A stretch of DNA of 64,000 nt from a virus. Under the pieces are notes generated by a model. That model was given only the letters and a program-made list of their open reading frames with translations, was not told where the DNA came from and made no database searches. The DNA lies in IMG/VR virus record IMGVR_UViG_3300023296_000874, positions 193,534 through 257,533 of that record; one strand, given 5' to 3'. The translations under genes and the position numbers were made by a program. Numbering within the stretch: the first letter of the stretch is position 1; each line of letters opens with the position of its first letter. Shown here piece after piece: positions 44,438 to 62,727 of the stretch.

Positions 44438-44489
44438 ACGGCTTGACTTCTCTGAGTATCTGGTTGTTTGAGGCGTTAGGGAGAGCAGA

Positions 44490-45745: not shown

Positions 45746-45790
45746 CCCTCGCTGCCAAATTCCGGTGTCCATCGAGGCATCGGAGGCAGC

Positions 45791-46899: not shown

Positions 46900-46935
46900 G
46901 TTCAGAGTGTCTCTCTTCCCAAAGGGAGCCACGTC

Positions 46936-47274
46936 ATGAGTTTGAGCATCAGTACCGAAGTCCGCACCACCCACTCCATTGACGAAGAGGAAATGGAGAG
47001 AGTGCTCAAGGAGTACTTCGGCAAGGACGTGTCCTACGACTCTTCGGACGTTGGCGGCGACGAAAGCGGCGGCACCCTTGAGGTTGACCTCAACGAGGAC
47101 ACCCTCTCCAAGAGCTACGCCGCCTCGCTCGAGAGCGTCAAGCGTGACCTCGAGGCGCACCGAGAGTCCAAATGGGGCATCCAGTTCAGCGCGATTGATG
47201 AGTACCTCCAGGTGGAGGTGCAAGAGGGGCGTTTGCCCTACGGCTACTACCGGATCGAATTCTGCTGGGGATAG
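46936..47274 (+). CDS. hypothetical protein, 112 aa
   Basis: ATG 46936 with AAAGGGAGCC upstream. Acidic alpha/beta protein (SIDEEEMERVLKEYFGKDVS, EVDLNEDTLSKSYAASLESV), C-terminal beta strand (YGYYRIEFCWG). No motif. Part of the + island after mtnD. Function unknown. Confidence 0.55.
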   Translation: MSLSISTEVRTTHSIDEEEMERVLKEYFGKDVSYDSSDVGGDESGGTLEVDLNEDTLSKSYAASLESVKRDLEAHRESKWGIQFSAIDEYLQVEVQEGRLPYGYYRIEFCWG

Positions 47275-47332
47275 CCTCTGAGTCTGTGCCGCCCTCACCG
47301 CGTTGAGGTAGTACAGCAAGGAGGCTCAGACA

Positions 47333-47518
47333 GTGACCAAACGACCCGATCCAGACCTAACCGTTGAAGTTGACGCGCGGGAACCCGCACCACGAGAAGA
47401 CATCGAAGTCAACATGGCGGGAAGCCTGATTGATGAGTTGGTGAGGAACCCGCCGCCCAAGACTCCCTCTGAGGATCCGGGTGATGATCTCGTTGTACTC
47501 CTGAAGCCCAAGGAGTAG
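47333..47518 (+). CDS. small acidic protein, 61 aa
   Basis: GTG 47333 with AAGGAGGCTCAGACA upstream, a near-perfect ribosome site. Acidic, Pro-rich, likely unstructured (TVEVDAREPAPREDIEVNMA). It ends 4 bp before the next gene. Function unknown. Confidence 0.55.
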   Translation: MTKRPDPDLTVEVDAREPAPREDIEVNMAGSLIDELVRNPPPKTPSEDPGDDLVVLLKPKE

Positions 47519-47522
47519 CATC

Positions 47523-48767
47523 ATGGCAAAAACCGGCAGAACCCGTGGAGCACGCAGCGGACGCACCGTCAAGGTGGTTGGCGTCTGGGAATGCGACTCG
47601 TGCGGCAACAAGTACCCAGGCACAACTCGCGAGTGTCCCCGTGGTTGCGGGAGCCCCCGTGAGTTGGAGGAGCTCCAGAAGCTCGCTCTGCCTGATGGAC
47701 CTCTCAAGGCGGCTTCAGCAGCAGACACAGCGGACTTGAGCCACGGACAGGACAAGCACTGCCCCTACTGCGGACGCGGAATGCGTGCCGACAACACCAA
47801 CTGCGGTTCATGTGTGGGTAGCCTCGAGGAGGCTTCAACCTCACGGCCCGAGAGCGCGCCTGTGCGTAGCGCCTCTCCTCCACCCCCACGCCGGGCCACT
47901 ACTCCTCCCCCCGTACCGACTCCGCGCCACAGCGCACCGAGAGCCGGTGGTGGCAAGCGCCACCTCTCCTACATCCAGCGCCCCGGTGGACCTGATCCGA
48001 GCAGTGGTGGAGGTGATGACGGAGGCTTCGGACGCATCTTCGCGGGCCTCGGAATTGTGATGGCGATCATCGCCTTCATTGGCCTGCTTGTGTGGGGCTT
48101 CACGGCTCACGAGGTGGACGGACAGGTTGCATCTTTGACCGGCACCTCCACGGCTCAGGAGTACAACTGGACGCAACGTAGCGACTCGGATTGGGCGCGC
48201 AACCTCCGTGACTCGAGCAGCTACTCCCCTTCCAACGGGAAGAACTCCGGCGAGCGTGCGGGTGAGGACGTCGGCTACTGCCGCATGAAGGAAGACCCGA
48301 GCGACACCTACGTGTGTGGCACGACCACTCAAACGGTGCCCGACGTGTGCGTGTGGGTAGACACCACGAGCATCGACCAGAGCTCCTGTACAGATGACGG
48401 TGCTGGGGGGTTCAACTGCGGCTACATCCAAGCGGAGGATTGCACGGCTCAGCCTGACATCATCGTGGATGTGATGTGCAACCGAGAGCATCGGTACTGC
48501 GACTACACGTACTACGCCTGGGCAAGCGGGACCAACCACAGAGTGACCTTCACCGGCCACACCATCAACGATCCGACCGCCCGGACCAGCGGCACGCGCC
48601 ATGTGGACTCCCCGCGCCGGATTTACACGGTGGGCGTGAGCTACATGGATGGTGCCGAGGTTGGATCAGGCTCCATCAACGTAGAACGCGCCGACTACCT
48701 GAACAGGAACGTTGGAGACACCGTACCTGTGATGCTCAACAACTTCGGCAGCGTTAGCTTCCAGTAG
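47523..48767 (+). CDS. zinc-ribbon membrane protein with ectodomain
   Basis: 414 residues from ATG 47523. Order: basic N-terminus; zinc ribbon (WECDSCGNKYPG...CPRGCG, 23-43); second CxxC pair cluster (HCPYCGRGM...NCGSC, 79-97); Pro-rich linker (~108-165); one membrane helix (RIFAGLGIVMAIIAFIGLLV, 171-193); and a ~220-residue domain rich in Cys (CRMKEDPSDTYVCG, CVWVDTTSIDQSSC). Cytosolic ribbons with an exported, disulfide-capable domain are expected. Ribbon-linker-TM layout resembles host bacterial membrane proteins. Role unknown; exclusion or envelope modulation is possible. Confidence 0.7.
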   Translation: MAKTGRTRGARSGRTVKVVGVWECDSCGNKYPGTTRECPRGCGSPRELEELQKLALPDGPLKAASAADTADLSHGQDKHCPYCGRGMRADNTNCGSCVGSLEEASTSRPESAPVRSASPPPPRRATTPPPVPTPRHSAPRAGGGKRHLSYIQRPGGPDPSSGGGDDGGFGRIFAGLGIVMAIIAFIGLLVWGFTAHEVDGQVASLTGTSTAQEYNWTQRSDSDWARNLRDSSSYSPSNGKNSGERAGEDVGYCRMKEDPSDTYVCGTTTQTVPDVCVWVDTTSIDQSSCTDDGAGGFNCGYIQAEDCTAQPDIIVDVMCNREHRYCDYTYYAWASGTNHRVTFTGHTINDPTARTSGTRHVDSPRRIYTVGVSYMDGAEVGSGSINVERADYLNRNVGDTVPVMLNNFGSVSFQ

Positions 48768-48774
48768 GACAGAC

Positions 48775-49902
48775 ATGGAACCCGTAACGATCATCCTTCT
48801 CACCATCGGCGGCATCGGCTCCCTCCTCGCGGCGGGAGCGGGTGGTGTAGCGGTGGGCGTAGCTGGGGCAAAAGCCTCAATGCCCGAGCCCGAGCCCGTG
48901 GACTCTGACCCGGTTGGGGCCATCCGTCTTCAGGAAGACCTCGACTACGCCCAGCGTCGGTTGGCGGATGCTCATGAAGACCTGGCGCGTGCCGGGGGTG
49001 ACCGGGACCGCTACAGGACGATGGCTGAATCTCACGACATTCACATGCCGGAGGTAGCCGAGACTCAGATGGTGGAACGGAGCGTGTGGAAAGACCGCCG
49101 CTACCGTGCCCACCCACGAGACATCCTCACCAACCTCGCAACGGACCTGGAGGAGTACGCAGGATCTGACCTCACGCTCACCATCTCCATCTCAGGCAAG
49201 GGTGGCTGGGCAGACCATCTCAAGGAGCGATGGTTCAAGACCGAGAGCCAGCGTGATCGCTACGGGCACTACAAGGAAGTGAAGGTGCCCATCAAGGAGA
49301 TCAAGGGATTCACCTTCGAGGGACCGCCAGACCGAGTGATCGACCACCTCCGCACCCTCCTCACGGATGACGACACGGGCCTCGTGACCGTTGCGGCGGT
49401 TGACTGTATGGACACTGCGTCAGGCTCCGACCGATTCGTAGGCCCGACCGACAAGATTGCCCTCGCGGGCAAGCCTTCCGCCAGGAAGGCGACCGTGGTG
49501 CCTCAGGCGAAGTTCTGGAGGGACTCCGACTCCCCGCTCCTCGTGAAGGCGAAGCTCACCGTGCGCGAAGAGGTGAAATCCCCACCCGCGCCGGAGGTGC
49601 AGATCGTTGAGGTGCTGGTGGTTCAGGAGCGCATTGTGGAGCGCATCGTTGAGAAGCCGGTGATTGTGGCCGTGCCCTCCGGTACGGAGCAGGACTTGTG
49701 CGGCCACACCCGCGAGGAGATCTCAGACCTCATCTCCGTAGAGCTTGAGCTTGCTCAGCTTGAGGGCGGACTCAAGCGAGTAGCGACGGCCTCACTCGCA
49801 AGAGCGGAGGCCGAAGTAGAGGCGGCACGCCCGGCTGATGATGTAGACGAGAGGCTCAGGAGGGCTCGGGCAGCGTCCCTTGCTCGGCAGCCTGGATCCT
49901 GA
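48775..49902 (+). CDS. membrane-anchored coiled-coil protein, 375 aa
   Basis: 375 residues from ATG 48775, 7 bp after the previous stop. Residues 5-33 form one membrane helix, Gly/Ala-rich (IILLTIGGIGSLLAAGAGGV). Then charged coiled coil (QEDLDYAQRRLADAHEDLAR), a folded middle domain, a Val/Glu/Arg strand repeat (VQERIVERIVEKPVIVAVPS) and a C-terminal helix. The 3' end overlaps a convergent - gene by 47 bp. Forms a pair with the preceding membrane protein. Not recognised. Confidence 0.6.
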   Translation: MEPVTIILLTIGGIGSLLAAGAGGVAVGVAGAKASMPEPEPVDSDPVGAIRLQEDLDYAQRRLADAHEDLARAGGDRDRYRTMAESHDIHMPEVAETQMVERSVWKDRRYRAHPRDILTNLATDLEEYAGSDLTLTISISGKGGWADHLKERWFKTESQRDRYGHYKEVKVPIKEIKGFTFEGPPDRVIDHLRTLLTDDDTGLVTVAAVDCMDTASGSDRFVGPTDKIALAGKPSARKATVVPQAKFWRDSDSPLLVKAKLTVREEVKSPPAPEVQIVEVLVVQERIVERIVEKPVIVAVPSGTEQDLCGHTREEISDLISVELELAQLEGGLKRVATASLARAEAEVEAARPADDVDERLRRARAASLARQPGS

Positions 49903-50482
49903 TGAGTAGATCCGGCGTGTAGCGATCCGCCAACAGCAAGGAGGCGGAAGGCAACGCGCGGGTTTCAGCCTGGAGCTGCTCCTCATCATCCATGAGGATC
50001 GCGGCACGGCTGTGAACCGTAGGCCCGGATTCCACAACTGGGGGCTCGAGGTACGGCTCCGGGTTCGTGTTGGCGAGGCTCTGCCAGTGCGCCATGACTC
50101 CGGGGTGTACGCCGCTACGGGACTCGTCGATGAGTTCCTGAGCGCGCTCCTTCATCCACGGTGCCCACGAGGCCTCGTACTCAGTCACCTTCTCCGCAGC
50201 AGTTCCGTACTGCGGATACATGAACTGGTCAGCGGAGAGGATGGCGAAAGGTCCCTTCAGGGAGCGGACGCCACGCATGAAGCTCAGCCCGGCCCAACCC
50301 GCCTGGAAGCCGCTGTTACCCATCTGGCCCGCGCCGTAGTTGAACGCTGCCTGGGCAATGAGACCCAAGGCCGCTGCCGAGGTGTTGTAGTCGTGAGGGT
50401 GCTCGATGGCGCTCTTGACGTAGGCGAGGAATTCAGCCTCCGTCTCGGGCCACGGTGCAGGAGCTTCTGGGTCAAACGGCAT
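49856..50482 (-). CDS. conserved phage protein of unknown function, 208 aa
   Basis: ATG 50482 with CGGAGAACC upstream. The centre (ALGLIAQAAFNYGAGQMGNS, GFQAGWAGLSFMRGVRSLKG, PFAILSADQFMYPQYG) matches a conserved protein found in many tailed phages (AxxAFNYxxxxxGxTGFQASxAxLxFxRxxRxxKGPFxxLxxxDxLYPQY). Its role has not been described to my knowledge. The C-terminal ~90 residues are variable. It converges with and overlaps the + membrane-protein gene by 47 bp. Confidence 0.7.
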   Translation of the reverse strand: MPFDPEAPAPWPETEAEFLAYVKSAIEHPHDYNTSAAALGLIAQAAFNYGAGQMGNSGFQAGWAGLSFMRGVRSLKGPFAILSADQFMYPQYGTAAEKVTEYEASWAPWMKERAQELIDESRSGVHPGVMAHWQSLANTNPEPYLEPPVVESGPTVHSRAAILMDDEEQLQAETRALPSASLLLADRYTPDLLIRIQAAEQGTLPEPS

Positions 50483-50532
50483 CAAGGTTCTCCGGGTAGG
50501 AAGGTACCCATCAAACACCAAGAACCATCAAG

Positions 50533-51099
50533 TCACCTTTCGAGAGCTACCTTCTTGCCGTGGTTGCGCTCATCCTTCACCCAACGCCAGAAGCGTCCGA
50601 TGGGGAACGCTTTGTGCTCACCCTCGCGGTAGAAGCCCGGTCGAGGGTAGTGCTTCTTGTAGGCCCCGATGGCTTCCTCTACAGAGTCGAAGCCGATCAT
50701 CACCTTGTCCTCATCGAACCCGCCGTCAGGCATGTGCTGGTGAATGACAAGCACGAGTGAGCTGTCGTGGTTGGGGCCAACGTACACGTCAAGCAGGTCG
50801 CCGTCTGTGGCCTCTGTCCCCCTGATCTCGCCGTAGTGGTGGTGCATGTAGCGCCTCCACTTCTTGCCTTCAGGGTTGGTCTTCTCGCGGTACTGTCCGG
50901 CCTTGACCTCAATGTCAATCTCAAGCCCTTGGAAGTCCACGTAGCCAACGAACGGCTTCTTCTTGGCTGGCTCGACCTTCACCTTGTGGAACGAGTGCGG
51001 CACCTCAACGATGCCATCGTCAGAGGCTACACGCGCGGGACTCAGACGCATCCGAGCCGCCACGTTCGCAAGGTGGTTGATTGTGTCCTGGGTTACCAT
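50533..51099 (-). CDS. InPase (inorganic pyrophosphatase-like) domain protein
   Basis: 188 residues from ATG 51099. Residues ~45-165 fit the InPase domain of phage polyvalent proteins: GLEIDIEVKAGQYREKTNPE, YMHHHYGEIRGTEATDGDLL, DVYVGPNHDSSLVLVIHQHM, GGFDEDKVMIGFDSVEEAIG. The DGDxLDVxVGP acidic motif would bind metal and phosphate. Predicted to hydrolyse pyrophosphate or a related bond. The start overlaps the end of the nucleotidyltransferase gene upstream by 7 bp, so pyrophosphate removal after nucleotidyl transfer is a natural idea. Confidence 0.75.
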   Translation of the reverse strand: MVTQDTINHLANVAARMRLSPARVASDDGIVEVPHSFHKVKVEPAKKKPFVGYVDFQGLEIDIEVKAGQYREKTNPEGKKWRRYMHHHYGEIRGTEATDGDLLDVYVGPNHDSSLVLVIHQHMPDGGFDEDKVMIGFDSVEEAIGAYKKHYPRPGFYREGEHKAFPIGRFWRWVKDERNHGKKVALER

Positions 51100-53474
51100 T
51101 CGTCCACCTCGATCTCATCCTCATCGTCAAATTCATCATCCTCATCGTCGTAGCCGTCGTCATTGACGTGGTACTCAACGCGGTAGGCGCTCTCTGCTGA
51201 GGCGCTCCAATGCGCAATGCTGTTGCCAGCCTCTTGTGAGGACTCACGGTAGGCGAGTTCATTGTGTCGCTCGCTCCGCACGTCAGGGAACACCATGTCT
51301 GCCATGTGCCGGTCCCTTTCACTGTCGACGCCATGTACCTGGCCGTAGGTCGGTGGAGCCTTCTTGGGGAGTGCGGCTTGTACCTCGCGCCAGTTGTCCT
51401 TCACCCACTGCATGATCATGCTGCCGGGGATTTCCTTCTTGGTCCGCTTGCGGAGTTGAAGGTTGATGCGTGAGCTGAAGCTCTTGCCGTCAACATACTC
51501 GTACTCCACGGTAGCGCTCAACACCTTGCGGATCACATCGTCGGGGCTGATCTTCCCGAGCATCAGCTCCTTGACGTAGGGGTCAAGAGCGCGCAAGCCC
51601 TTGTTCATCATCCGTCGCAGGTACTTGTCCAGCAGGCTCACCATCCCGCGCGGGGTCTTGGCAAAGTCGTCCTGGCCGAGGGTGCTCACGGTGTACTTCT
51701 TGTCCTCGAAGCTCACCTTCACCTCAAGCATCTTCAGGGCCTTCCACGAGTCCTCGCCACCGTCAGGGTCAAACTCGCCCTGGAGAGTGTACTCACCGCT
51801 GGCAATGGACCCCCACTCATTCCAGGTGATGTCAGCGCCGGGCAGGATGTTGATCACGGAGTGCTTCGCAGCTTTCACAGCCACCGCAATCGCGGCCATA
51901 TGCGCCGGGTCAGGCTTGCCCCGTGATCCAGAAATAGTCGCAATGCCCTCCGGAGTAAGTAGTGCGAGAACCTGCTTGAACACCTTGCGGCCATCAGGCA
52001 TGTCCTTCTGTCTCCGGAACAGGTCCTTCATTCCGCGTGTTCCAGCAACGTTCGGGTACACAAGGCAGTCTCGAGTCTTGCTCGCGTTTGACCACCCGCC
52101 CACTTCCATCTTCACGATGGTGTACTTGCCTACCTTGAGCCGGTGGTCCACTACGGACCCCATGGAGATGCTGCTGTCAATGTGGATGTTCGCCCGCCTC
52201 CACTTCTTCTGGAACAGGTTCTCCAGCTCAATCATCCAAGGCTCTGGAGTGGTGGATACCTGACTCCCGTAGTACGTGGCGAGCTTGGCAATCTTGGCAG
52301 AGGCAACGCGGGGATTCTTGAACCGGAAGGGACGTCCCTTCCACTTGGCAGCCATGAGGCGGCGGATGGCGACGTAGTTGGGTCCGAGGAACGCCCGGAT
52401 CTCAGCCTTCACCTGGCCGAAGTTGCGCTGCACGTACCGGATGTTGCCCCATGTCCTCTTCTTGCGGAGGATCTCCTTGATCAGCTTCTTCCCGTCCTTG
52501 GGGCCAGTGCTCTCAAGGAGCTTCACGCCGATGTTGTTCGGGAACCAGTCCGGGTGGCCGTAGGTCTCGCCGTTCACGGTCACTGAGTAGAGGCCAGGGT
52601 TTTTGGCCCAGGCGCGGTAGCCCTCGGTGCGTCCCTTCATGAACTCGGAGAAGCGCCGTCCAAGCACCTCCATTCCCTTGACGATGTCCTTCGGGCTGCT
52701 TGGATCGTAGAGGAAGTCGAACGGCATGGTCACGCCGCGCAACGAGCCTATGCCCTTCTGGTAGAGCTCAGGGGCGTCCTTCTCGAGGTTGAAGCCCGTG
52801 GGAGGCTTCTTGATCTCGTTCATCCAGACGGTGTCGTCCTTGCCCCGTCCCTTCTCATCACGCTGACGCTTGGTGGGGAGATCAACGAGGTAGGAGCTCA
52901 GGTTCGAGGCGTCCACAATGGGAGGCTGTCCGTCGAACCTCATGTCGCCGTGGTGTAGCCCGCGCTGGATGCTGTAGTCGATTGGGTGTGTGGGAGCAAG
53001 CTGCTTGAGGACGGCCTTGTTCCGGATGCCCTTTCCCTGCCATACACCACGCCCGGAGATGCACTGCTCAAGCTTCCGCTTCACATGCCGTCCAGATACC
53101 CTTCCACCTCGAGCAACGAAGACGTGCTGCTCAGCCAGGTCAACGGCGGTGAATTGAGCCAGGGTCCACTTCCCCATCTCTGCGAACAGCTTGAGCCAGT
53201 CGAGTACCACCATGACGTCAACGTCCGAGGTGTCGTTCCACTGGTAGGAGGCCGCACCGCCCTGAATGCCCATTGCAAGCACCCAATCACTGACTGGTCC
53301 GGGCCATCCCTGCTGCTCAAGGTACTCGTAGAACTCGCCCTCAAGGCGGTCAAGGACTTCCTCTTTGACGTAGGCGAGCTTCCGACGATCGTCCCAAGCC
53401 CACAGCCAATCCATGCGGTTGTCCAATACCGGGTCAAACACTCCGGCAGTACGGAACAGGTGGTCAATGCTCAT
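51093..53474 (-). CDS. 793-aa protein with Pol-beta-type nucleotidyltransferase domain
   Basis: 793 residues from ATG 53474. Residues ~64-92 read DWVLAMGIQGGAASYQWNDT then SDVDVMVVLDW: the GG/GS...D-x-D signature (Gly72-73, Asp84, Asp86) of nucleotidyltransferases. The next ~150 residues carry HPIDYSIQRG, a possible third acidic site. The C-terminal ~450 residues hold basic domains and an acidic tail (DDGYDDEDDEFDDEDEIEVD). Substrate unknown: RNA, protein or small molecule. Overlap with the InPase gene supports a joint function. Confidence 0.65.
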   Translation of the reverse strand: MSIDHLFRTAGVFDPVLDNRMDWLWAWDDRRKLAYVKEEVLDRLEGEFYEYLEQQGWPGPVSDWVLAMGIQGGAASYQWNDTSDVDVMVVLDWLKLFAEMGKWTLAQFTAVDLAEQHVFVARGGRVSGRHVKRKLEQCISGRGVWQGKGIRNKAVLKQLAPTHPIDYSIQRGLHHGDMRFDGQPPIVDASNLSSYLVDLPTKRQRDEKGRGKDDTVWMNEIKKPPTGFNLEKDAPELYQKGIGSLRGVTMPFDFLYDPSSPKDIVKGMEVLGRRFSEFMKGRTEGYRAWAKNPGLYSVTVNGETYGHPDWFPNNIGVKLLESTGPKDGKKLIKEILRKKRTWGNIRYVQRNFGQVKAEIRAFLGPNYVAIRRLMAAKWKGRPFRFKNPRVASAKIAKLATYYGSQVSTTPEPWMIELENLFQKKWRRANIHIDSSISMGSVVDHRLKVGKYTIVKMEVGGWSNASKTRDCLVYPNVAGTRGMKDLFRRQKDMPDGRKVFKQVLALLTPEGIATISGSRGKPDPAHMAAIAVAVKAAKHSVINILPGADITWNEWGSIASGEYTLQGEFDPDGGEDSWKALKMLEVKVSFEDKKYTVSTLGQDDFAKTPRGMVSLLDKYLRRMMNKGLRALDPYVKELMLGKISPDDVIRKVLSATVEYEYVDGKSFSSRINLQLRKRTKKEIPGSMIMQWVKDNWREVQAALPKKAPPTYGQVHGVDSERDRHMADMVFPDVRSERHNELAYRESSQEAGNSIAHWSASAESAYRVEYHVNDDGYDDEDDEFDDEDEIEVDEW

Positions 53475-53911
53475 CGGTTCTCTCCGAAGTGTGCGCCGCC
53501 GAGGGTCTGCTGTAGGAGCCGCTCGATGGCGTCAAGCTGTCGGCTCAGATGGAGCGCGGCAGGCTCCATCCTCTCATCGCGTGCGTGAATGCCCAAGGCC
53601 AGTACGTGCTTGCACGGTCCAACACGGCGTCCATTCCTCTGCCAATCTTCACAGGTGCAGAGGTGTCCGCGTCGGGGGCGTAGGGTGATGTGAGGAGTGT
53701 AGATGTCGCCCTGGGAGCCTACGATGTCTCCCCAGATGCGGTCGTCATCGTACTGTAGGTTCCGGATGCGGATCTGATCCACCCGGCCCAACCGACGCTT
53801 CTCTCCAACCTCAATGAGGCGGTCGAGGGTCTCACGATGAACGCTAACGAGTCCTGCCCACTCTCGTACTTGCTCGAGTAGCTGCGGGATGGTGTCCTGA
53901 AGCTCTGGCAT
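53471..53911 (-). CDS. SWIM zinc-finger protein, 146 aa
   Basis: ATG 53911 behind AGGAGGTCCC. Residues 1-45 helical; beta strands (IRIRNLQYDDDRIWGDIVGS) lead into HLCTCEDWQRNGRRVGPCKH, with Cys85, Cys87, Cys100 and His102 giving a full CxC...CxH SWIM finger. These bind DNA or partner proteins. It is the first gene of the late unit that includes the nucleotidyltransferase, whose start it overlaps by 4 bp. Possible adaptor for that enzyme. Confidence 0.75.
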   Translation of the reverse strand: MPELQDTIPQLLEQVREWAGLVSVHRETLDRLIEVGEKRRLGRVDQIRIRNLQYDDDRIWGDIVGSQGDIYTPHITLRPRRGHLCTCEDWQRNGRRVGPCKHVLALGIHARDERMEPAALHLSRQLDAIERLLQQTLGGAHFGENR

Positions 53912-53937
53912 GGGACCTCCTTACGAGGGACAGCCCC

Positions 53938-53952
53938 CACAAAAGGATTATG
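53938..53952 (-). promoter_or_regulatory. late-promoter motif copy
   Basis: Sense CATAATCCTTTTGTG, one mismatch, 27 bp upstream of the start at 53911. Its TAA (53948-53950) is also the stop codon of the asparagine synthetase gene. Confidence 0.85.
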
Positions 53953-55711
53953 TCTGGTTTTCAAGCCACGCGGCGAACACAAACAGTGTCCAACAGAAGA
54001 GCGTGAGGTCCTTGTTGCCAGCGTAGTATTGATTGATGATGAGGTCGATGCGCCTCATGTCCAGGAACGCCCCGAGGTTGCGAAATCTCTGAGAGTGAAT
54101 CGCTCTTTTGAACCCTTCCTTGAAGGGTCCTCGGAGCAGTGCGTCAGTAGGTACGGTGAACCCCATCTTTGGGCGTCGGGTGATGTCGGATGACACTCCG
54201 AAGCTCTCTGCCACGTCCTTGAGGATGCGCTTGGTGGTGCCGTTGTACTTGAACTCGTCGGGAAGTCGAACCACGTACTCCATCAGATCACGGTCCAAGA
54301 ACGGCACCCGAGCCTCCACTGACGCTCCCATGGTCATCTTGTCCACCTTCATGAGCAGATCATCAGGAAGCCAGGTGAGCGTGTCCATTCGAGTGATCCT
54401 CGACTGGAGGGTCGTGTTCGCGTAGTCGTTCCAGATGGTCGGCATACGAGTCAGCGGGTTGTGATGGCGCGTCACGTCTGAGGTCACAATTCCCTTGCGG
54501 TCCAGGAAGTAGTTGGAGCGCTCCAAATGGTCAAGCATCGCGGGCATACCCACGTCGTTGACGTCCCGAGCCTTCAAGATGCTGTCGTACTGCCAGTAGC
54601 CCGCGAAGATCTCGTCAGCTCCCTCACCGCTGAGCATCACCGTGCATCCACGCTTCGCGATCCGGCTGAGGTGGAGCGTGGGGAAACAGGCCGCGTCTGA
54701 AAGCGGCTGGTCCATGTGATTGAGCACGTCAGGTAGGATGTTGACCATGTCGTCAAACGTCATGCCGCACTGGAAGTAGTTGAGGCCAAGCTCTCGGGCG
54801 ACTCCACCCGCGTAGCCGTACTCGTTGGCGTTGGGGTAGCCCACGTTGTAGACGTTGATGTCAGTGCCCAGCTCTTTGGCAGCAACGGCGCAGATTACAG
54901 AGCTGTCGACCCCACCACTCAGGAAGGCTCCGAGAGGTACCTCGCTCTGGAGGCGTCTACGCACTGCTTGAATGAGGAGCTCGCGCGTCCGGCCCACAGC
55001 GTTCTCGTAGGTGTCAGGGTGGACGGTCTGGTCCATGGTCCACCACCGGTCAATCTTGAGCTCGCGGGTCCGGAGGTCATAGACCATGTGGTGCCCTGGC
55101 GGGAGGGCGTGGATTCCTCTCCAGATGGTGTCAGGTCCGGGGATGTACCGGAAGGTGAAGTAGTCCGCAATCGCGTTGGGGTTGATGCCAAAGCCTGGGT
55201 AGGCGGACGTGATGGCCTTGATCTCAGAGCCGAAGGCGAAGCGGTTGCCGTCCAACGTGTAGTAGAGAGGCTTGATGCCAACGTGGTCCCTGGCCAGGAA
55301 CAGAAGCTTCGCCCTCTTGTCGAAGATGCTGAAAGCGAACATGCCTCGGAGCCTGTGAAGGAATCCGAAGCCGTGCTGTTCGTAGAGGTGGACCAGTACC
55401 TCGGTGTCGCTATTGGTCTTGAAGACGTGGCCCTGGCTCTCCAACTCAACCTTCAGACTGCCGTAGTTGTAGATCTCGCCGTTGAACACCACTTCAACGT
55501 TCCCGTCCTCGCTGGAGATGGGCTGCTTTCCTCCACTACGGTCGATGATCGCCAGCCGGTCAATGCCGTAGCCGATGGTCTGACCGAGGGACCTCCGGGT
55601 GACCCAGTTCTGATCATCAGGTCCACGGTGTGAGATGGACGTTGCCATCTTCGCGAGTTTGCCGTCGAGGGAGACGTTTCCGTTCTCGACCATTCCGAAA
55701 ATACCACACAT
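53948..55711 (-). CDS. asnB: asparagine synthase (glutamine-hydrolysing) family
   Basis: 587 residues from ATG 55711 with GGAGAGCTG upstream. Class II glutaminase domain with Cys2 (MCGIFGMVENG), SHRGPDDQNW and FNGEIYNYG; synthetase PP-loop SGGVDSS at ~264-270; EGADEIFAGY later. Both active sites look intact. The family makes asparagine or amidates sugar and peptide acids. In a glycan cassette, as here with glycosyltransferases and an epimerase, AsnB homologues often amidate uronic acids, so that is an alternative to asparagine supply. Last gene of the cassette. Confidence 0.92.
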   Translation of the reverse strand: MCGIFGMVENGNVSLDGKLAKMATSISHRGPDDQNWVTRRSLGQTIGYGIDRLAIIDRSGGKQPISSEDGNVEVVFNGEIYNYGSLKVELESQGHVFKTNSDTEVLVHLYEQHGFGFLHRLRGMFAFSIFDKRAKLLFLARDHVGIKPLYYTLDGNRFAFGSEIKAITSAYPGFGINPNAIADYFTFRYIPGPDTIWRGIHALPPGHHMVYDLRTRELKIDRWWTMDQTVHPDTYENAVGRTRELLIQAVRRRLQSEVPLGAFLSGGVDSSVICAVAAKELGTDINVYNVGYPNANEYGYAGGVARELGLNYFQCGMTFDDMVNILPDVLNHMDQPLSDAACFPTLHLSRIAKRGCTVMLSGEGADEIFAGYWQYDSILKARDVNDVGMPAMLDHLERSNYFLDRKGIVTSDVTRHHNPLTRMPTIWNDYANTTLQSRITRMDTLTWLPDDLLMKVDKMTMGASVEARVPFLDRDLMEYVVRLPDEFKYNGTTKRILKDVAESFGVSSDITRRPKMGFTVPTDALLRGPFKEGFKRAIHSQRFRNLGAFLDMRRIDLIINQYYAGNKDLTLFCWTLFVFAAWLENQT

Positions 55712-55716
55712 GGATT

Positions 55717-56508
55717 TCAGCTCTCCAAGTAGCGTTCATAGATGGATCCCTCAAGCACCTTTGCGACCGCATCGTAGTTGCGGATGGCGTCCTTCAGCGG
55801 CAGTCCAATCTTCTGGTACGCCGGTCGAGCCACGAATTCGCGCGGTACGTCAAGATGGTCAGCAAAGCTCTGGAGGGTGCTCTCAGGCACCTCACCATCT
55901 ACAAACAGGGTCTCGTAATGCACGGTCAAGGCGATGGGTTCAAGCACCGCCTCCCAGTGCTTCTGCTCGCGCCGTAGCTTACCGAGCTTGTCCAGCAGAT
56001 TGCCCAGAGGCAATTCCACTGTCCGGTCCTTCATCTTGTCCGGGTTGGGTGTCGCCCACACCTTCGTCCGGGTAGAAAGCTCCGCTGATACCAGCATCGC
56101 CAACACGTTGTCTCGCACCAGGTGGATGATCTTGAAATCGTGCCGGATCAGGAGGTCAAGCAGTGGGGAATGCTCCATGCGTACTGCGCCGGGCGTCATG
56201 GCTCCCCTCAGGAAGTCGTACTTGCAGTCGAACAGGATGAGATCTACGTCCCCGCTCAACCTACGCAGGTAGTTGAGGTACCCACCGAACAGTCCGGAGA
56301 CGTTGGCGAGGGTTGGAATGCACAGGCTCGGATTCTTCCGAACGCGCCCATGGAGATACTTGTAGTAGCCTCCGAGCTGCTCGTAGTCCTTGGGAATGAA
56401 TACCTCTCCGAAGGTCTGGATCTCTGGGTTGGTTGACATGACGGACCTCAGGACGGTTGTACCGCTCCTTTGCGTACCGACGATGACTGCGAATCGGGGC
56501 AAACCCAT
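55717..56508 (-). CDS. sulfotransferase
   Basis: 263 residues from ATG 56508 with AGGAGATCGTCA upstream. The PAPS 5'-phosphosulfate loop is VIVGTQRSGTTVLRSVM (residues 8-24). FKIIHLVRDNVLAMLVSAEL fits the 3'-phosphate-binding region (Arg-x6-Ser pattern), as in Stf0/Sulfotransfer_1 proteins. It would move sulfate from PAPS to a hydroxyl, here most likely of a glycan built by the neighbours. No membrane segment, so a soluble cytosolic enzyme. Sulfotransferases are uncommon in phage genomes. Confidence 0.85.
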   Translation of the reverse strand: MGLPRFAVIVGTQRSGTTVLRSVMSTNPEIQTFGEVFIPKDYEQLGGYYKYLHGRVRKNPSLCIPTLANVSGLFGGYLNYLRRLSGDVDLILFDCKYDFLRGAMTPGAVRMEHSPLLDLLIRHDFKIIHLVRDNVLAMLVSAELSTRTKVWATPNPDKMKDRTVELPLGNLLDKLGKLRREQKHWEAVLEPIALTVHYETLFVDGEVPESTLQSFADHLDVPREFVARPAYQKIGLPLKDAIRNYDAVAKVLEGSIYERYLES

Positions 56509-56518
56509 TGACGATCTC

Positions 56519-57055
56519 CTACTTTCGTACACTGAACTGGATGCGCATTTCCTTGACGGAGTTCATGTAGTGCCTGCGTGCGAAGTCCTTGTCCTTCTGC
56601 GGCAGATCCTTGAACTCGTCCTCATACGTGTAGTCGATGCTGATGGTCTTGAACAGGTCCTGGAACATGCCCCCTGAGAAGATGCGCTCGTTGAGCATGG
56701 TCACATGCCCCGGCACAATGGAGGTCTCGTGGGTCCAGTAGGGGAACCACCAATCCAGCTTCGTACCCGGAGCACACACGCGCCAAATCTCCCTGTAGAG
56801 CCCGCCGTAGGCTCCTTGAGGGATGTGTTCGATGGTGTGGTAGCTGTACACCTGAGTCACGGAGTTGTCCGGTAGAGGGATCAGCTTCGTAGCGTCGCAG
56901 ATGATGTCGACGTCCGGGTAGTCTCGAATGTCGATGCCGACGGAGCCCTTGTAGTGCTTGCGGTTGCCCACGCCCAGGTCCAGAAGGATGCCCTCTGTCC
57001 CGAACTCCGTGGTGATCTTGTCTCTGTACTTGGGGTTGGTCTTATCCGGTAGCAT
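56519..57055 (-). CDS. SAM-dependent methyltransferase (class I)
   Basis: 178 residues from ATG 57055 behind GGAGGCTGAG. GILLDLGVGNRKHYKGSVGI (motif I, residues ~22-41), DICDAT-type DVDIICDATKLIPL, VYSYHTIEHIPQGAYGGLYR and EIWRVCAPGTKLDWWFPYWT fit the methyltransf_11 layout found with glycosyltransferases in surface-glycan loci. It probably O-methylates a sugar or caps a chain. Spacing 1 bp from the upstream glycosyltransferase. Confidence 0.85.
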   Translation of the reverse strand: MLPDKTNPKYRDKITTEFGTEGILLDLGVGNRKHYKGSVGIDIRDYPDVDIICDATKLIPLPDNSVTQVYSYHTIEHIPQGAYGGLYREIWRVCAPGTKLDWWFPYWTHETSIVPGHVTMLNERIFSGGMFQDLFKTISIDYTYEDEFKDLPQKDKDFARRHYMNSVKEMRIQFSVRK

Positions 57056-57056
57056 C

Positions 57057-59381
57057 TCAGCCTCCTACAAGGTCGAATAGGGTTTCCTGCCACTCTTTGA
57101 GGTATCGTTGGTGCGTGAACAGGCGGCAGATGGTCTCCCGCCCTCGCATTCCCATACGCCGAGCAGCGTTCATGTTCTTCTGGCACCAAAGGAGATGCTC
57201 CGCGAGCTCCTCCTTGGTCTTGCCCGTGAATCCGTTGAGCCCGTTGGTGATGAACATGCTCTCATCGTGGTAGTCCATCGACACCAAACACGCGCCCTTG
57301 AGCATTGCCTCAGCTCTCGTCCTGGGCATGGGGCTACGGAGGGTAGTGTTGACGAACACGCTGTACCTGCCGAGCAGCTCTTGGTAGAGCCTGAACTGCT
57401 CCTTGGCTCGAGCCTGGGGAGGCAGCCTTGACGCGGCTTTCTGTACTTCGACCCTACTGAACTCACCGCCATCATCCCGTCCCAGATAGTCAATCTTGAA
57501 CAGGTCGTTGAGGTACTTGAACTCGTAGTAGCCACGATACCAGGGACGGTGACGGATGCTGTTTGCGGCGTAGATGAAGTCCCGGTCCCGGCGTCCGGGC
57601 GTGTACTCAGAGCTATCAAAACCCTGCCAGATGGTCCGGCTGTTCGGGAACTTCCACTGGCTCCATGCGTTGTAGGAGTTGCAGACGATGGGCATGTTGC
57701 CGACAAGGTTGCGGATACGATTCACCTCAACGTCCCACTCCTTCATGAGGTCGGGGCCGCGATAGTCAACGTCGAACATCCCGTGGAAGGGTGGCGTGCC
57801 GTGGCAGATCGCCACCCGAGGCATTCCCTTGGTCTCCTTGAGGAACCTGCGGAAGATTGCGCCCCACCCCTTCCCGAGTACGTCGTTGGATACACCCAGA
57901 GGGTTGGCGACGTTCTCATCGAAGTGGAGCAGTGCGAGGTCATAGTCCCGAGGGTCAATCTCGTCCATCTTCACGAACTGAGCGTTCTTGGGGAACGGTC
58001 GGTAGCTGTAGTCCCACGCCATCGTAGTGTCGTCCTCTGCGACGTAGAAGTCGTGAGGGAGCTTCCAGAGCTCGTACTGGTGTCCTACGTGCCAGCGGTA
58101 GGTGAGGATCTTGAGCCGCCGCTTGACGGTGCGGTTGGTATGGGAGAGTCGGGGCCGTAGGTCCTTGTGATAGAACGCTGTCGGGCTCTGGAACCCTCCG
58201 ATTTTCGGTCGCACGTCAATCCGAGAGAGGGTCTTGGAAGGCTGTGCTGGGGAGTACCTGTCCATCCTGCCGCGAGGGAGGATCATGTCGTCCGGAAGCA
58301 GGATGGTCACCTTTCGTGCGTGAGCGGTGTCAGGTACGCGGTCAACCGCCTTCACGTAGGAGTGCAGCGTTGCATAGTACCGAGCGAGTTGCCCGCCGCC
58401 TACAAGGTAGATCTCTACGCCAGTGCGCCACTGAGCGAGTGCCGACTCAATCACGAAGGGGTGCTGAGCCTCGTTGAAGGAAGTCAGCTCAATCGACACA
58501 ACGCCCCAAGGTCGTCCGGTGTGGCCGTCGGTGAACACCTCTTGCGTGGGGTTCGTGTTCTTGAACCACGAGTAGATCTTCCCGTAGGTCTCAACGATCC
58601 AGGGCAACGCCTCTGTGTAGACCACCGCTGGGTTGTGCATGAGGAACCGGCTGAAGTTCCTCATGGATCTCAAAGGCTTGATCATCGGGTCGGTCGTGGA
58701 CGGGTGGCTGAGGTGGACCGTGAACGCTTCGTTGGTGTAGCTGAAGTGCAGTCCGCTCTTGAACAGGTTCCACCCGGCCTCAACGTCCTCCCATCCGAAG
58801 CCTGAGTTCGGGTCGGTGCCCACGTAGGCGTAGTCCTCGTTGAACATCCCACCGGGCGGAACAGCGCCACGCTTGAACGACACGTTGCGGGTGATGAAGT
58901 TCAGGAAGTAGCCTGGGTTCGCGGGGTACTGAAGAGAGGTCTCTGCGTCCCTCTTGGCGGGGTTCCTCTGTAGCTGGTCAATAAGCCCCCAGATCTCCCT
59001 GCCGTTAGACTCGATGTTGTAGGCCCCGATGAGCACGTCCTTCACTTCGTGGTGTGTGAGCTCATGGATGTGAACCTCAGCGAACCGTGCGTTAGGGATG
59101 CAGTCCGAGTCCACGATGCAAATGAACTCGGCAGAGCTCTCACGCACGCCGATGTTCCGAGCCTTGCACTGGCCGCTGTTACGTCCCAGGCGGATGTACT
59201 CAATGCGGAAGTCCTTGCCGTACCGTTGGATGACACCTTGATAGTCCACATCGGAACAGTCGTCGACGAGGATCAGCTCAAACTCCTTGCTCGTCTGCCT
59301 CTTCAAGCCCTCAAAGAAGGTGGTCAAGGACTTGACGTCCTTGTTGTAGACGGTGGCTACGATGGAGAGTTTCGGGGTCAC
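57057..59381 (-). CDS. two-domain glycosyltransferase, GT2 plus GT-B
   Basis: 774 residues from GTG 59381, overlapping the upstream stop (GTGA), with GGGAGGGCT upstream. Residues 1-~290: GT2 (LSIVATVYNKD, ELILVDDCSD, GQCKARNIGV, DxD-type IVDSDC at 89-94, FGWEDVEAGWNLF). Residues ~400-774: a GT4-like GT-B domain ending YSVFVNTTLRSPMPRTRAEA and MLKGACLVSMDYHD. Two transferases in one chain would add two sugars in sequence. Soluble; nucleotide-sugar substrates unknown. Confidence 0.85.
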   Translation of the reverse strand: MTPKLSIVATVYNKDVKSLTTFFEGLKRQTSKEFELILVDDCSDVDYQGVIQRYGKDFRIEYIRLGRNSGQCKARNIGVRESSAEFICIVDSDCIPNARFAEVHIHELTHHEVKDVLIGAYNIESNGREIWGLIDQLQRNPAKRDAETSLQYPANPGYFLNFITRNVSFKRGAVPPGGMFNEDYAYVGTDPNSGFGWEDVEAGWNLFKSGLHFSYTNEAFTVHLSHPSTTDPMIKPLRSMRNFSRFLMHNPAVVYTEALPWIVETYGKIYSWFKNTNPTQEVFTDGHTGRPWGVVSIELTSFNEAQHPFVIESALAQWRTGVEIYLVGGGQLARYYATLHSYVKAVDRVPDTAHARKVTILLPDDMILPRGRMDRYSPAQPSKTLSRIDVRPKIGGFQSPTAFYHKDLRPRLSHTNRTVKRRLKILTYRWHVGHQYELWKLPHDFYVAEDDTTMAWDYSYRPFPKNAQFVKMDEIDPRDYDLALLHFDENVANPLGVSNDVLGKGWGAIFRRFLKETKGMPRVAICHGTPPFHGMFDVDYRGPDLMKEWDVEVNRIRNLVGNMPIVCNSYNAWSQWKFPNSRTIWQGFDSSEYTPGRRDRDFIYAANSIRHRPWYRGYYEFKYLNDLFKIDYLGRDDGGEFSRVEVQKAASRLPPQARAKEQFRLYQELLGRYSVFVNTTLRSPMPRTRAEAMLKGACLVSMDYHDESMFITNGLNGFTGKTKEELAEHLLWCQKNMNAARRMGMRGRETICRLFTHQRYLKEWQETLFDLVGG

Positions 59382-60415
59382 AGGAGCCCTCCCAGGTCAG
59401 GCGGCATCAGAACGGAGTGATGGTCGAGGACGTACTTCTGGAGGCTGTCCCCGTAGGATCGGCGCTCCTGAGGACGGTCAATGAGCCTCTGGATGTAGTG
59501 GTCCCATTCCTCCGGCGTCCGCGCCTTGTGAACCACTGAGGATGGAATGTCTCCGAGTGCGCCGGTTGGTGACACCACGCTCGGGATGCCAAACACTCCG
59601 GATTCGATCACCTTGACGATGCTCTTGCAGCGGTTGAACCTCGTGTCCTCAAGGGGTACAAGGTTGATGTCGAACAGGGAGTTCAGAGTCAGCGGTAGGA
59701 GCTGTGGGCGCACATGCTGCCACTTCCAAAGCCGGTACTTCGGGTACCACTTCTGCTCAAACTCCGGCGCAAGAGGCAGCTCGCCAATGATGTGCAGGTC
59801 CACGTAGTCCCTGCTCTCCATGATGCGGTCCAACACTGGAACGATCAGAGCGAAGTCCTTGCGGTGCGTCCGGGTGCCGGAGGCGTATCCGATGTTCACG
59901 CGGCTTGGGTCACGTAGAGCTCTTCCGGTCTGCGCCAGGCGGGCTACGTGCTGCTCAATCTTGTTCCGAACCACGTAGACGGTCTTCTCCGGCCAGCGTA
60001 GACGCACCTCCTCAGCGAGCCGGTCGGTAGACACGGTCACAAACTGAGCCCATTCAACAGCCGCCGCTACACCCTCACTCTTCTCCTGGTCGTAGACTGC
60101 CCCCTCAGGAACAGCGTCAACGTCCCACACCAGGTCGTCAAGGTCGTACCCGTAATGAGCAGCCTCTTCGGCCACCCTATCGAAGTGGTGTGCGTTGGCC
60201 TGAGTCAGCGGGATGCGCTGTACGATGGTGGTACTACCCGGAATGTCCGTCCAAGGCGTTGTCGGGGGCGACGTCACCCACCAGTGCGCTGGATCAAAGC
60301 CGATCCAGCAGACAGCTTGGTGCCCGTGGCTGATGAGGTGGCGATGCACGGTGAACGCGCGGTACCTCGAGCAGCCAACGAACTCATCATCTTCTGCAAC
60401 CCAAACGAACTTCAT
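59378..60415 (-). CDS. GT-B type glycosyltransferase, 345 aa
   Basis: ATG 60415 with GGAGAACCG upstream. N-terminal MKFVWVAEDDEFVGCSRYRA and mid DLDDLVWDVDAVPEGAVYDQ, then INIGYASGTRTHRKDFALIV and a C-terminal DINLVPLEDTRFNRCKSIVK with the donor-binding ESGVFGIPSVVSPTGALGDI. These fit GT1/GT4 fold enzymes found in phages. Both ends overlap neighbours by 4 bp, so the cassette is one co-translated unit. Confidence 0.8.
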   Translation of the reverse strand: MKFVWVAEDDEFVGCSRYRAFTVHRHLISHGHQAVCWIGFDPAHWWVTSPPTTPWTDIPGSTTIVQRIPLTQANAHHFDRVAEEAAHYGYDLDDLVWDVDAVPEGAVYDQEKSEGVAAAVEWAQFVTVSTDRLAEEVRLRWPEKTVYVVRNKIEQHVARLAQTGRALRDPSRVNIGYASGTRTHRKDFALIVPVLDRIMESRDYVDLHIIGELPLAPEFEQKWYPKYRLWKWQHVRPQLLPLTLNSLFDINLVPLEDTRFNRCKSIVKVIESGVFGIPSVVSPTGALGDIPSSVVHKARTPEEWDHYIQRLIDRPQERRSYGDSLQKYVLDHHSVLMPPDLGGLL

Positions 60416-61395
60416 CGGTTCTCCTTCATCCACTCAACGGTGCGTGTGAGGCCTCGTAGCAGGTGGAATTTCGGCGCGTAGCCGAAGTAGAACTGTGCTC
60501 TTGCGATGTCTGCGAGCGTGCCGGGCACATCTCCCTCTTGGTCACCGATGTGCTCGATGATGGGCTTCTTGCCTACAAGCTCGCCAATGAGCTCCACCGT
60601 GTAGCTGAGAGTGTTCGGCGTACCGAACCCCAGGTTGTAGATGTGGTGTCCCTTACGGGGCGTACCAGCGGCAGCCAGGATACCGTCAACGATGTCATCG
60701 ACGTAGGTGTAGTCCCTGAACGAGCTGCCGTCTCCGTAGAGCGTTATGGTCTCTCCGCGCTCTACCTTGCCGATAGTGTCACGAATGAACATGTCAGGTC
60801 GTCCGTGAGGTCCGTACACCGTGAAGAAGCGGAGGGATGCTCTGATCCGGTCGGTGCTCTGCGCGTAGTAGTCCATGAGCAGCTCGCACTGTCTCTTGGT
60901 CACGGCGTAGGGGCTGATCATCGCGGTGGGGCGGTCACTCTCTTTGAAGGGAGAGCGGAGGGTGCCGTAGATGGATGAGCTGCTGGCGAACACCACATCA
61001 GCGTCGTGGTTCTTGGCGAACTCCAGAACGGCCACGGTCCCTTCCACGTTGGTACGGGAGTAGCGCAGAGGATCAACCAGGCTGGGTCGCACGCCAGCAA
61101 GCCCCGCGAGGTGGAACACCGTGTCGACACCCTTGCGAGCCCAGATGGCAGCCGAGCTCTGAGCGCTGCTCAGGTTGCACACGTCTTCATCGACCCACCC
61201 CAGATCGTCGACGACATGGAAGTCAGCCGTCACGGGTCCTCCGAAAATGCGTGCGAGGTTTTTCCGCTTCACGTCCTCACCGTAGAGGGTCTCGTCGAGA
61301 CAGTCTACGATCAGAACGCTGTGGCCGAGCTCTCGCAGCCTGAGTACGAGGTTGGTGCCAATGAACCCGGCACCTCCGGTGACCAGAACTCTCAT
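60412..61395 (-). CDS. NAD-dependent sugar epimerase/dehydratase
   Basis: 327 residues from ATG 61395, with GGAGGATAGG upstream. Extended SDR: TGGAGFIG (6-13) binds NAD, VDCLDE follows strand 2, SSSSIYG and SPYAVTK give catalytic Tyr163 and Lys167, and FTVYGPHGRPDMFIRDTI and GDGSSFRDYTYVDDIV match UDP-glucuronate 4-epimerase/CapI-type enzymes. It would supply a nucleotide sugar (for example UDP-galacturonate, if the closest family holds) to the transferases. A uronic-acid product would fit with the AsnB-like amidase. Confidence 0.88.
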   Translation of the reverse strand: MRVLVTGGAGFIGTNLVLRLRELGHSVLIVDCLDETLYGEDVKRKNLARIFGGPVTADFHVVDDLGWVDEDVCNLSSAQSSAAIWARKGVDTVFHLAGLAGVRPSLVDPLRYSRTNVEGTVAVLEFAKNHDADVVFASSSSIYGTLRSPFKESDRPTAMISPYAVTKRQCELLMDYYAQSTDRIRASLRFFTVYGPHGRPDMFIRDTIGKVERGETITLYGDGSSFRDYTYVDDIVDGILAAAGTPRKGHHIYNLGFGTPNTLSYTVELIGELVGKKPIIEHIGDQEGDVPGTLADIARAQFYFGYAPKFHLLRGLTRTVEWMKENR

Positions 61396-61396
61396 C

Positions 61397-62461
61397 CTAT
61401 CCTCCATGTACGGTCTTGAATACGCCCGCCCAGGTGCCTACGACCTGGGCGATGTCGAACCGGGCTCGCACGTAACGAGCTCCGTTCTGCTTCACGTTCC
61501 CACGCAGCTCAGGATTGTCAACCAGCTTGCGCACGGTCTGAATCCATTCGGCAGGGTTGCGGCAGAGGAATCCATTGTCCCCGTCTCGGATGGTGGCGTT
61601 GTAGGTGATTAGGTTTGAGGCCACGGGCACGAAACCACACGCCATGTACTCGATGACCTTGAGATTGCTCTTCGAGTAGTTGAAGAGGTGGTCCGCTACG
61701 GGAGCCAGGCCAATGTCGATAGGTAGAGATGCCAGGTACCGGAGGTAGGTCCTCGGCGGCACCATCTCCAGGAACATGATCTGGTCGTGGGACGTAGCCT
61801 CAACGGTCTCCTTGTGAGCCGCCCCACCCATGACGATCATCACCTTGTTCCCGTACTGACGGGTGATGCGCTTCAGGCACGGGACAATGAGCTGGAGGTC
61901 CTTCTTGTGGGTAGGCGATCCGAGCCAGCCAATCACGGTGCGACCCTCGCACCTGGTGAAGAACTCGTCGGTGGAGATCTTGTTGCAGTTGCGGTCCAAC
62001 GCCGAGATCATCTGGGGGGCTGTGCCCATCCGGTCCAACTCTCCGAAGTCGAGCGAGTTGGGGCAGACGTAGACCGTCGGGTTGTGCTTGCGCATCTGCT
62101 GCGCCAAGAACGGAGTGGAACAGATCACAGCGTCCGCAGCCTTCAGGTAGCGGATGACGTTCTGTCGGATGCGCATGTAGAAAGCGTGCGCGGGGTTCCA
62201 AGAGGGTAGGCTGAAGACGTCATCGTCAAGCTCGTAGATGACCTTCTTGCCGCGCTTCTTGAAGCTCTCAACTCGCCGTAGGAAGGAGAGCTCATACTGC
62301 TTCTGAACCACAATCACATCGGCCCAGAGGATCTCTGCGTCGGTGCTTCCGATGTGGCCCAGGCGGGCTTCAATACCGTGTGTCGGCAGGTAGCGGATCG
62401 GGATCTCGGCCCGGTAAAGGCCACACCCGTTCGGCCCCTCAGAGACGAAGAAAACTTTCAT
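61397..62461 (-). CDS. GT4-like glycosyltransferase, 354 aa
   Basis: ATG 62461. MKVFFVSEGPNGCGLYRAEI at the N-terminus; KVIYELDDDVFSLP marks the phage/bacterial group with 'YELDDD'; RTVIGWLGSPTHKKDLQLIV and the donor site NLKVIEYMACGFVPVASNLI are GT-B features. First gene of the cassette. No ribosome site of normal strength precedes it; the 29-bp AT-rich gap upstream (62462-62490) may hold the cassette promoter. Acceptor unknown. Confidence 0.85.
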   Translation of the reverse strand: MKVFFVSEGPNGCGLYRAEIPIRYLPTHGIEARLGHIGSTDAEILWADVIVVQKQYELSFLRRVESFKKRGKKVIYELDDDVFSLPSWNPAHAFYMRIRQNVIRYLKAADAVICSTPFLAQQMRKHNPTVYVCPNSLDFGELDRMGTAPQMISALDRNCNKISTDEFFTRCEGRTVIGWLGSPTHKKDLQLIVPCLKRITRQYGNKVMIVMGGAAHKETVEATSHDQIMFLEMVPPRTYLRYLASLPIDIGLAPVADHLFNYSKSNLKVIEYMACGFVPVASNLITYNATIRDGDNGFLCRNPAEWIQTVRKLVDNPELRGNVKQNGARYVRARFDIAQVVGTWAGVFKTVHGG

Positions 62462-62490
62462 GTGTATAGATCTGCTTTGTGTTTATTCTA

Positions 62491-62727
62491 TCAGGTGGTT
62501 CCGGTAGAGCCCGATGAGATCCCTCCAGAAGACTGAAGGGCGTCAACGGAGTTGCTGAAATCGTCCACGACGCTCTCGGGGATGTCCAGTGCGGCAGCAG
62601 TCCCGAGAGGGGTGCTGATGATCCGCATGGAGATCGCACCGGTCGCTGAGATGAGAACCTTGTAGACCCACTGGTCAGCTCCAGAGCCGGAGGTGTAGGT
62701 GTACTCCTGCTGGAATAGTGTGGGCAT
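62491..62727 (-). CDS. small hypothetical protein, 78 aa
   Basis: ATG 62727 overlaps the preceding stop (ATGA). Beta-rich (MPTLFQQEYTYTSGSGADQW, YKVLISATGAISMRIISTPL) with a Ser/Gly tail. Resembles small virion proteins in style. Function unknown. Confidence 0.5.
   Translation of the reverse strand: MPTLFQQEYTYTSGSGADQWVYKVLISATGAISMRIISTPLGTAAALDIPESVVDDFSNSVDALQSSGGISSGSTGTT

Follow-up and report, generated by a model that had tools for sequence, protein, structure and literature searches.

A seven-gene cassette for probable glycan assembly and decoration at a structural-gene locus of an uncultured huge phage

Overview of the cassette and its source phage

The final 64,000 bases of the IMG/VR virus contig IMGVR_UViG_3300023296_000874 (contig positions 193,534 to 257,533; this whole stretch is the window, and its own numbering is used below) harbored a cassette of seven intact minus-strand open reading frames (ORFs) at 53948–62461, where a preliminary description of this DNA had placed it. 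The product of this intact operon is very probably a short sugar chain bearing a uronic acid together with methyl, sulfate, and perhaps amide groups. Soluble assembly of the glycan on a virion protein was the best reading of the target, and we held it with about even confidence.

The source was an uncultured, very large tailed phage, represented by a 257,533-bp contig that had no end repeats and was therefore probably a fragment. The window encoded the major head protein, portal, head protease, and terminase large subunit (TerL), and the tail sheath and baseplate genes lying outside the window on the same contig marked the phage as a jumbo myophage. The capsid gene lay at 24034–24927, and a gene for a PKD-domain protein at 14277–16298. 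The nearest named record was that of the 485-kb uncultured phage LR745208.1 (major head protein 80.6%, terminase 43%). Myrna, reportedly one of the phages studied in Freeman 2023, has a major head protein that shares its family with that of the present phage (27.9% identity).

Architecture of the cassette

Read from the 5′ end, the cassette encoded a GT4 glycosyltransferase (GT; 354 aa), a short-chain dehydrogenase/reductase (SDR) epimerase (331 aa), a GT4-like protein (351 aa), a GT2/GT-B fusion (774 aa), an S-adenosylmethionine (SAM) methyltransferase (178 aa), a sulfotransferase (271 aa), and an AsnB-type amidotransferase (587 aa), with junctions of −11, −22, −4, +1, −14, and +5 bp in transcription order, four of the six being overlaps. 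Seven contiguous, mostly overlapping genes of these families had been claimed in the preliminary description, and both the arrangement and the family assignments were upheld. That the genes build and decorate a glycan was well supported by the families, by the motifs (the three GT proteins had GT motifs, and the other four enzymes catalytic or binding motifs), and by the tight co-directional packing. Chance is no rival explanation for seven consecutive full-length enzyme genes of a single theme with phage codon usage.

Codon adaptation of the cassette equaled that of 179 other genes of this phage (z −1.1 to +0.5), and the cassette was therefore not a recent capture. Recent capture from a host O-antigen locus, the contrary case raised in the preliminary description, was rejected on this phage-like codon usage and also lacked support in view of the phage relatives of the GT4 proteins. 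Promoter and terminator scans gave nothing above chance, and the minus strand from 50.8 to 64 kb carried no terminator-like site. A search for signs of an integrated or excisable element gave no flanking direct repeats.

None of the seven proteins had a hydrophobic stretch of transmembrane level, and family and hydrophobicity scans of the cassette recovered no flippase, polymerase, membrane transferase, or polyprenyl-phosphate transferase, in agreement with the preliminary description; the cassette did not have the make-up of an O-antigen conversion (gtr) or capsule locus. It did encode soluble GTs of its own, one of the marks of phage virion glycosylation systems.

Glycosyltransferases and methyltransferase

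The first cassette gene (61397–62461, minus strand) encoded the 354-aa GT4 protein (Pfam Glyco_trans_1_4 1.5e-12; PHROG 7162 1.4e-43; KSxxKxIE motif), and the third (59378–60433, minus strand) the 351-aa GT4-like protein (PHROG 7162 1e-28; a weak match to Pfam Glyco_trans_1_2). These two were paralogues (25.5% identity, E 1.6e-18) and grouped with phage families, in which relatives were found. The 774-aa protein (57057–59381, minus strand) was a fusion of an N-terminal GT2 domain (GT-A, DxD; Glycos_transf_2 2.5e-23) with a probable C-terminal GT-B domain (Glyco_trans_1_2 4e-4 at 670–764, under the Pfam cut-off), its middle having no family match; the GT2 part resembled exopolysaccharide GTs (EpsD model 2.6e-25, under the model's cut-off), and no full-length relative was found in phages or IMG/VR. 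The preliminary count of four GT domains held only if the weak GT-B match was included and failed otherwise. The small class-I SAM methyltransferase (56519–57055, minus strand) matched Methyltransf_11 (8e-6) and PHROG 6636 (2e-9) and displayed an LDLGxG motif.

Epimerase and probable uronic acid supply

The SDR epimerase (60412–61407, minus strand; Pfam Epimerase 3e-50) was a probable uridine diphosphate (UDP)-glucuronate 4-epimerase. Its best solved-structure match was the UDP-glucuronate 4-epimerase MoeE5 (6kv9, E 8e-51), and it kept the GxxGFIG motif and the Ser/Thr-Tyr-Lys triad of the SDR fold. In UDP-glucuronate 4-epimerases, the carboxylate is held by Thr126, Ser127, Ser128, and Thr178 main chain (PMC7984243), and Arg185 has also been named as carboxylate-binding (PMC12338863). 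The phage epimerase displayed the MoeE5 pattern SSSSIYG and TVYGPHGR, kept most of the carboxylate-binding residues (Thr/Ser-Ser-Ser, Thr178, and Arg185, in the numbering of BcUGAepi), and had no decarboxylase Glu at 128. It shared SSSSxYG, YxxxK, TVYGPxxRPDM, and GDVxxT with MoeE5 and BcUGAepi but differed from both at two of the specificity positions Pro85, Gln211, and Thr280, which read Ala, Ser, and Thr in the phage protein (equivalence read by eye); this was not the Lys/Gly/Tyr pattern of GALE. The epimerase likely supplies UDP-galacturonate to the cassette, and the idea of a uronic-acid-containing glycan was strengthened by the MoeE5 relationship and by the retained carboxylate-binding residues.

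The MoeE5 match also brings to mind a small soluble glycoconjugate of moenomycin-like logic (UDP-glucuronate 4-epimerase, AsnB-type amidotransferase, GTs, and methyltransferase) that would act on the host or on competitors. This likeness was that of one enzyme, the cassette encoded no prenyltransferase or phosphoglycerate-linking enzyme, and such a product was judged highly improbable.

Sulfotransferase and AsnB homologue

The sulfotransferase (55717–56532, minus strand), dependent on 3′-phosphoadenosine-5′-phosphosulfate (PAPS), was recognized by both the Sulfotransfer_3 profile (6e-10) and the 5′ PSB (PAPS) loop TQRSGTT (consensus TxRSGTT). Its sole solved relative was a weak one (Stf0, 1tex, E 0.005), and a search of the phage collection with a threshold of E 1e-3 gave no relatives.

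The AsnB-type glutamine-dependent amidotransferase (53948–55711, minus strand; Asn_synthase 5e-81, GATase_7 7e-45) had the glutaminase Cys right after the initiator Met, the SGGxDSS pyrophosphate loop, and the KxD synthetase motif, its catalytic columns being invariant. The best curated model was the generic asparagine synthase TIGR01536 (asn_synth_AEB; 467 bits against a cut-off of 267), and the protein fell under the cut-offs of specialized amidotransferase models (TIGR03108, 436 bits against 817). Its nearest cellular relatives found (33 loci, 29–40% identity) came mostly from archaeal and bacterial metagenome-assembled genomes, and in 11 of these loci an epimerase or GT relative lay within 8 kb. 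Amidation of the uronate carboxyl is a plausible, predicted role of this enzyme.

AsnB might instead be a separate metabolic gene for asparagine supply beside a smaller GT–epimerase cassette, an arrangement compatible with any of the acceptors considered below. The TIGR01536 score, the abundance of AsnB-like genes in viral contigs (at least 474 matches), and the methionine-salvage and NAD genes of the same island would suit this arrangement; AsnB was nevertheless collinear with the sulfotransferase gene at a distance of 5 bp and also occurred inside glycan clusters of other viral contigs, and we regarded the separation as rather unlikely.

Location of the cassette in the huge-phage clade

The genomic context was compared across 44 related loci obtained from a TerL scan of IMG/VR, with the families of the small gene and the beta-helix gene searched by two separate profiles. 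In most of the 44 loci the order was a small gene (~142 aa), a beta-helix gene (~394 aa; weak pectinesterase match), g435, and g430, with TerL some kilobases away. About 30 huge phages related to this one shared that arrangement. The window retained the small conserved gene (62491–62727, minus strand; clade small-family profile 1.7e-11), which in relatives precedes the beta-helix gene and here preceded the equally oriented cassette at a distance of 29 bp, and on the other flank g435 (43558–44394, minus strand; conserved near TerL in the clade) and g430 (43002–43616, minus strand; conserved in 33 of the 44 loci). Between these flanks, an 18-kb island (44400–62490) occupied the place of the one beta-helix gene of LR745208.1; it was composed of the cassette, which formed the edge beside the small gene, minus-strand genes at 50.5–53.9 kb, and a plus-strand block at 44.5–49.9 kb. 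The beta-helix gene was present in 31 copies in relatives, some of whose contigs were near-duplicates, and was represented in the recovered contig only by a weak partial match within a 1140-aa protein (10615–14037). A chimeric contig was considered and countered by the uniform GC and by the clade genes at both island edges, the right edge resting on the single small gene.

No relatives of any cassette protein were found in the 44 TerL-flanking loci, nor of the GT4 protein or AsnB in 36 whole clade contigs (the GT search having no positive control in those contigs). One of these 36, G035, carried a tetratricopeptide repeat (TPR)-sulfotransferase gene (117606–119006) about 1.3 kb from g435; a PF00733 match in the same contig was rejected as AsnB, falling on a 504-aa ORF that read as GMP synthase. 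Huge phages varied in what lay between the small gene and g435, which was a beta-helix gene (LR745208.1, 417717–419339), a 671-aa gene (G035; L113, 4574–8273), or the 18-kb island.

Candidate acceptors of the glycan

From the intact genes, their families and motifs, their order, and their location, all of them observed directly, we infer the following chemistry and acceptor. Host UDP-glucuronate would be converted into UDP-galacturonate by the epimerase, and the three soluble GT proteins would assemble a short oligosaccharide in the cytoplasm directly on the acceptor; the glycan would then be O-methylated and sulfated from PAPS, and its uronate carboxyl would probably be amidated by the glutamine-dependent AsnB homologue. 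The acceptor would most likely be at least one virion surface protein, glycosylated late in infection.

A virion protein was favored because the enzyme set was soluble, because the cassette lay at the structural-gene locus of the clade (in the place of the beta-helix gene and near the portal, TerL, and capsid genes), because other phages have parallels at structural loci, and because mycobacteriophages provide a documented precedent for glycosylated virions (see below). The structural-locus position and the absence of membrane steps from the cassette likewise favored the soluble acceptor, such as a virion protein, of the preliminary description. Several findings weighed against it: (i) the plus-strand block at 44.5–49.9 kb separated the cassette from the capsid and terminase genes, so common transcription with them lacked support; (ii) the contig yielded no UDP-glucose dehydrogenase, so that UDP-glucuronate would be host-supplied; (iii) the AsnB homologue, by its best curated model, could make asparagine; (iv) AlphaFold models predicted from single sequences were too poor for a fold search (pLDDT, the predicted local distance difference test score, 33.7 for the sulfotransferase and, with AF2, 35.5 for the 774-aa GT); and (v) with 257 kb recovered and a nearest named relative of 485 kb, the contig was incomplete, and the lack of membrane or DNA-modification genes in it is weak evidence.

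The main rival was remodeling of the host surface, in which the enzymes would alter or extend precursors of host lipopolysaccharide, O-antigen, or capsule in the cytoplasm and so block superinfection or re-adsorption to debris. Surface glycans commonly bear sulfate, methyl, and uronamide groups; the cellular AsnB relatives often lay near polysaccharide genes, the GT2 part had its exopolysaccharide likeness, and a membrane enzyme could hide in the missing part of the genome or come from the host. The cassette nonetheless lacked a polyprenyl-phosphate transferase, a flippase, a polymerase, and any membrane segment, and its GT4 pair fell with phage families; we kept host-surface remodeling as a tentative alternative.

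The phage genome itself, listed among the possible targets in the preliminary description, became a less likely one. Phages are known to hypermodify their DNA with glycans (Pyle 2024, as cited in the relevant passage of PMC12619734), and a glycan could likewise be built here on a modified base; the contig had a match to a deoxynucleoside monophosphate kinase family, and the tandem GT4 genes of Phapecoctavirus ESCO5 adjoin primase and DNA polymerase genes. Against this, the cassette lay at a structural locus, and the enzymes that would introduce a base hydroxyl were not found: TET/JBP (PF12851), thymidylate synthase (PF00303), and C5-methyltransferase (PF00145) had no match in the incomplete contig, a weak test with maybe half the genome missing and an empty TET control. 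Hypermodification of the DNA was accordingly considered improbable.

Returning to the virion protein, a further step would be that the virion carries a sulfated, amidated galacturonic-acid glycan that functionally replaces the beta-helix surface protein of the clade, which we considered unlikely in this full form. To our knowledge, phage virion glycans with sulfate or amide groups have not been described. Were the virion the target, a decorated glycan would have taken over the locus of a surface-type protein, an example of surface variation in huge phages. Whatever its acceptor, the cassette offers a compact intact enzyme set with which to study the targets and purposes of glycosylation by large phages, and its first steps (UDP-glucuronate epimerase, sulfotransferase, and amidotransferase) lend themselves to assay.

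Other genes of the island, the clade, and the contig

The plus-strand block of the island harbored two overlapping methionine-salvage genes, encoding the methylthioribulose-1-phosphate dehydratase MtnB (45791–46438, plus strand; TIGR03328, 181 bits, over the cut-off) and a protein of the acireductone dioxygenase family, MtnD (46423–46899, plus strand; PF03079 8e-36), adjoined by a NadD-like gene (45077–45745). The minus-strand part contained the gene of a 793-aa protein (51093–53474) that had no family match and a nucleotidyltransferase-like GGxxS..SDxDxMV stretch; this gene overlapped those for a SWIM zinc-finger protein (53471–53911, minus strand) and a pyrophosphatase (50533–51099, minus strand), and L070 and L073, two members of the clade, had 56–64% relatives of the pyrophosphatase close to TerL.

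Elsewhere in the clade, DnaX-like ATPase genes were split by a sequence that resembled an intein and began with CFTED (read by eye; LR745208.1, 420816–422702; G035, 109036–109716), and in LR745208.1 two TnpB/OrfB-like ORFs (408400–409683 and 411851–413152; read by eye) stood on either side of the terminase gene. The contig outside the window (regions L004–L008 and L012–L013) encoded IF-3, class I and class II aminoacyl-tRNA synthetases, peptide deformylase, PARP, Clp protease, volactin, an ABC transporter ATPase, and a permease. A glucose-1-phosphate thymidylyltransferase-like gene also lay on the contig, far from the cassette.

Comparison with related cassettes and known systems

The protein O-glycosylation cluster of Tannerella forsythia is composed of asnB, wecB/C, GTs, and methyltransferases, its protein-linked glycan contains a uronamide, and its AsnB was suggested by the authors to form the acetamidino group on Pse (PMC6120980). 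Both systems had an AsnB homologue beside GTs and methyltransferases, but the T. forsythia cluster is bacterial, uses a flippase and an undecaprenyl carrier, and has no sulfotransferase among its listed genes (PMC6120980).

Capsid and tail-tube proteins of mycobacteriophages are glycosylated, according to the passage of PMC12619734 that cites Freeman 2023. As described in that passage, those systems share with the present one the use of phage-encoded GTs, and this phage also shared the major head protein family with Myrna-type phages; the present cassette adds an epimerase, a sulfotransferase, AsnB, and a methyltransferase. The organism groups that were listed for relatives of the GT4 proteins included no mycobacteriophages. 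Phapecoctavirus ESCO5 has two adjacent GTs, each ~25–27% related to both GT4 proteins here, but its pair adjoins primase/polymerase genes and has no epimerase, sulfotransferase, or AsnB annotated nearby.

Single-protein IMG/VR scans gave no matches for AsnB and the 354-aa GT and two lone epimerase genes, with no cassette, for the epimerase; AsnB matches to "Listeria/Staphylococcus phage" records were left unused, being on short unannotated contigs that may be bacterial. Three examined loci of unrelated viral contigs (L118, L125, and L160) carried AsnB inside glycan clusters with a similar enzyme mixture, although they differed in gene order and had low identity (AsnB 30–33%, epimerase 24–28%). 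L160 (107–11784) encoded UDP-glucose dehydrogenase, PIG-L deacetylase, sulfotransferase, epimerase, AsnB, a WecB-like epimerase, and a weak GT2, and the next gene was that of a tail sheath stabilizer; the dehydrogenase and the WecB-like gene were additional to the present set. Streptomyces phage Zuko harbored an epimerase–GT pair beside the terminase, and in phage ctQWt234 the capsid gene was followed by a GT/methyltransferase cassette. AsnB and sulfotransferases recur in the glycan cassettes of viruses, which suggests that phages may use uronamide and sulfate decorations more widely than recognized. Given the similar cassettes in these three loci, Zuko, and ctQWt234, the present finding belongs to a recurring kind: it is a new example of recurring phage cargo, with an unusually complete decoration set.

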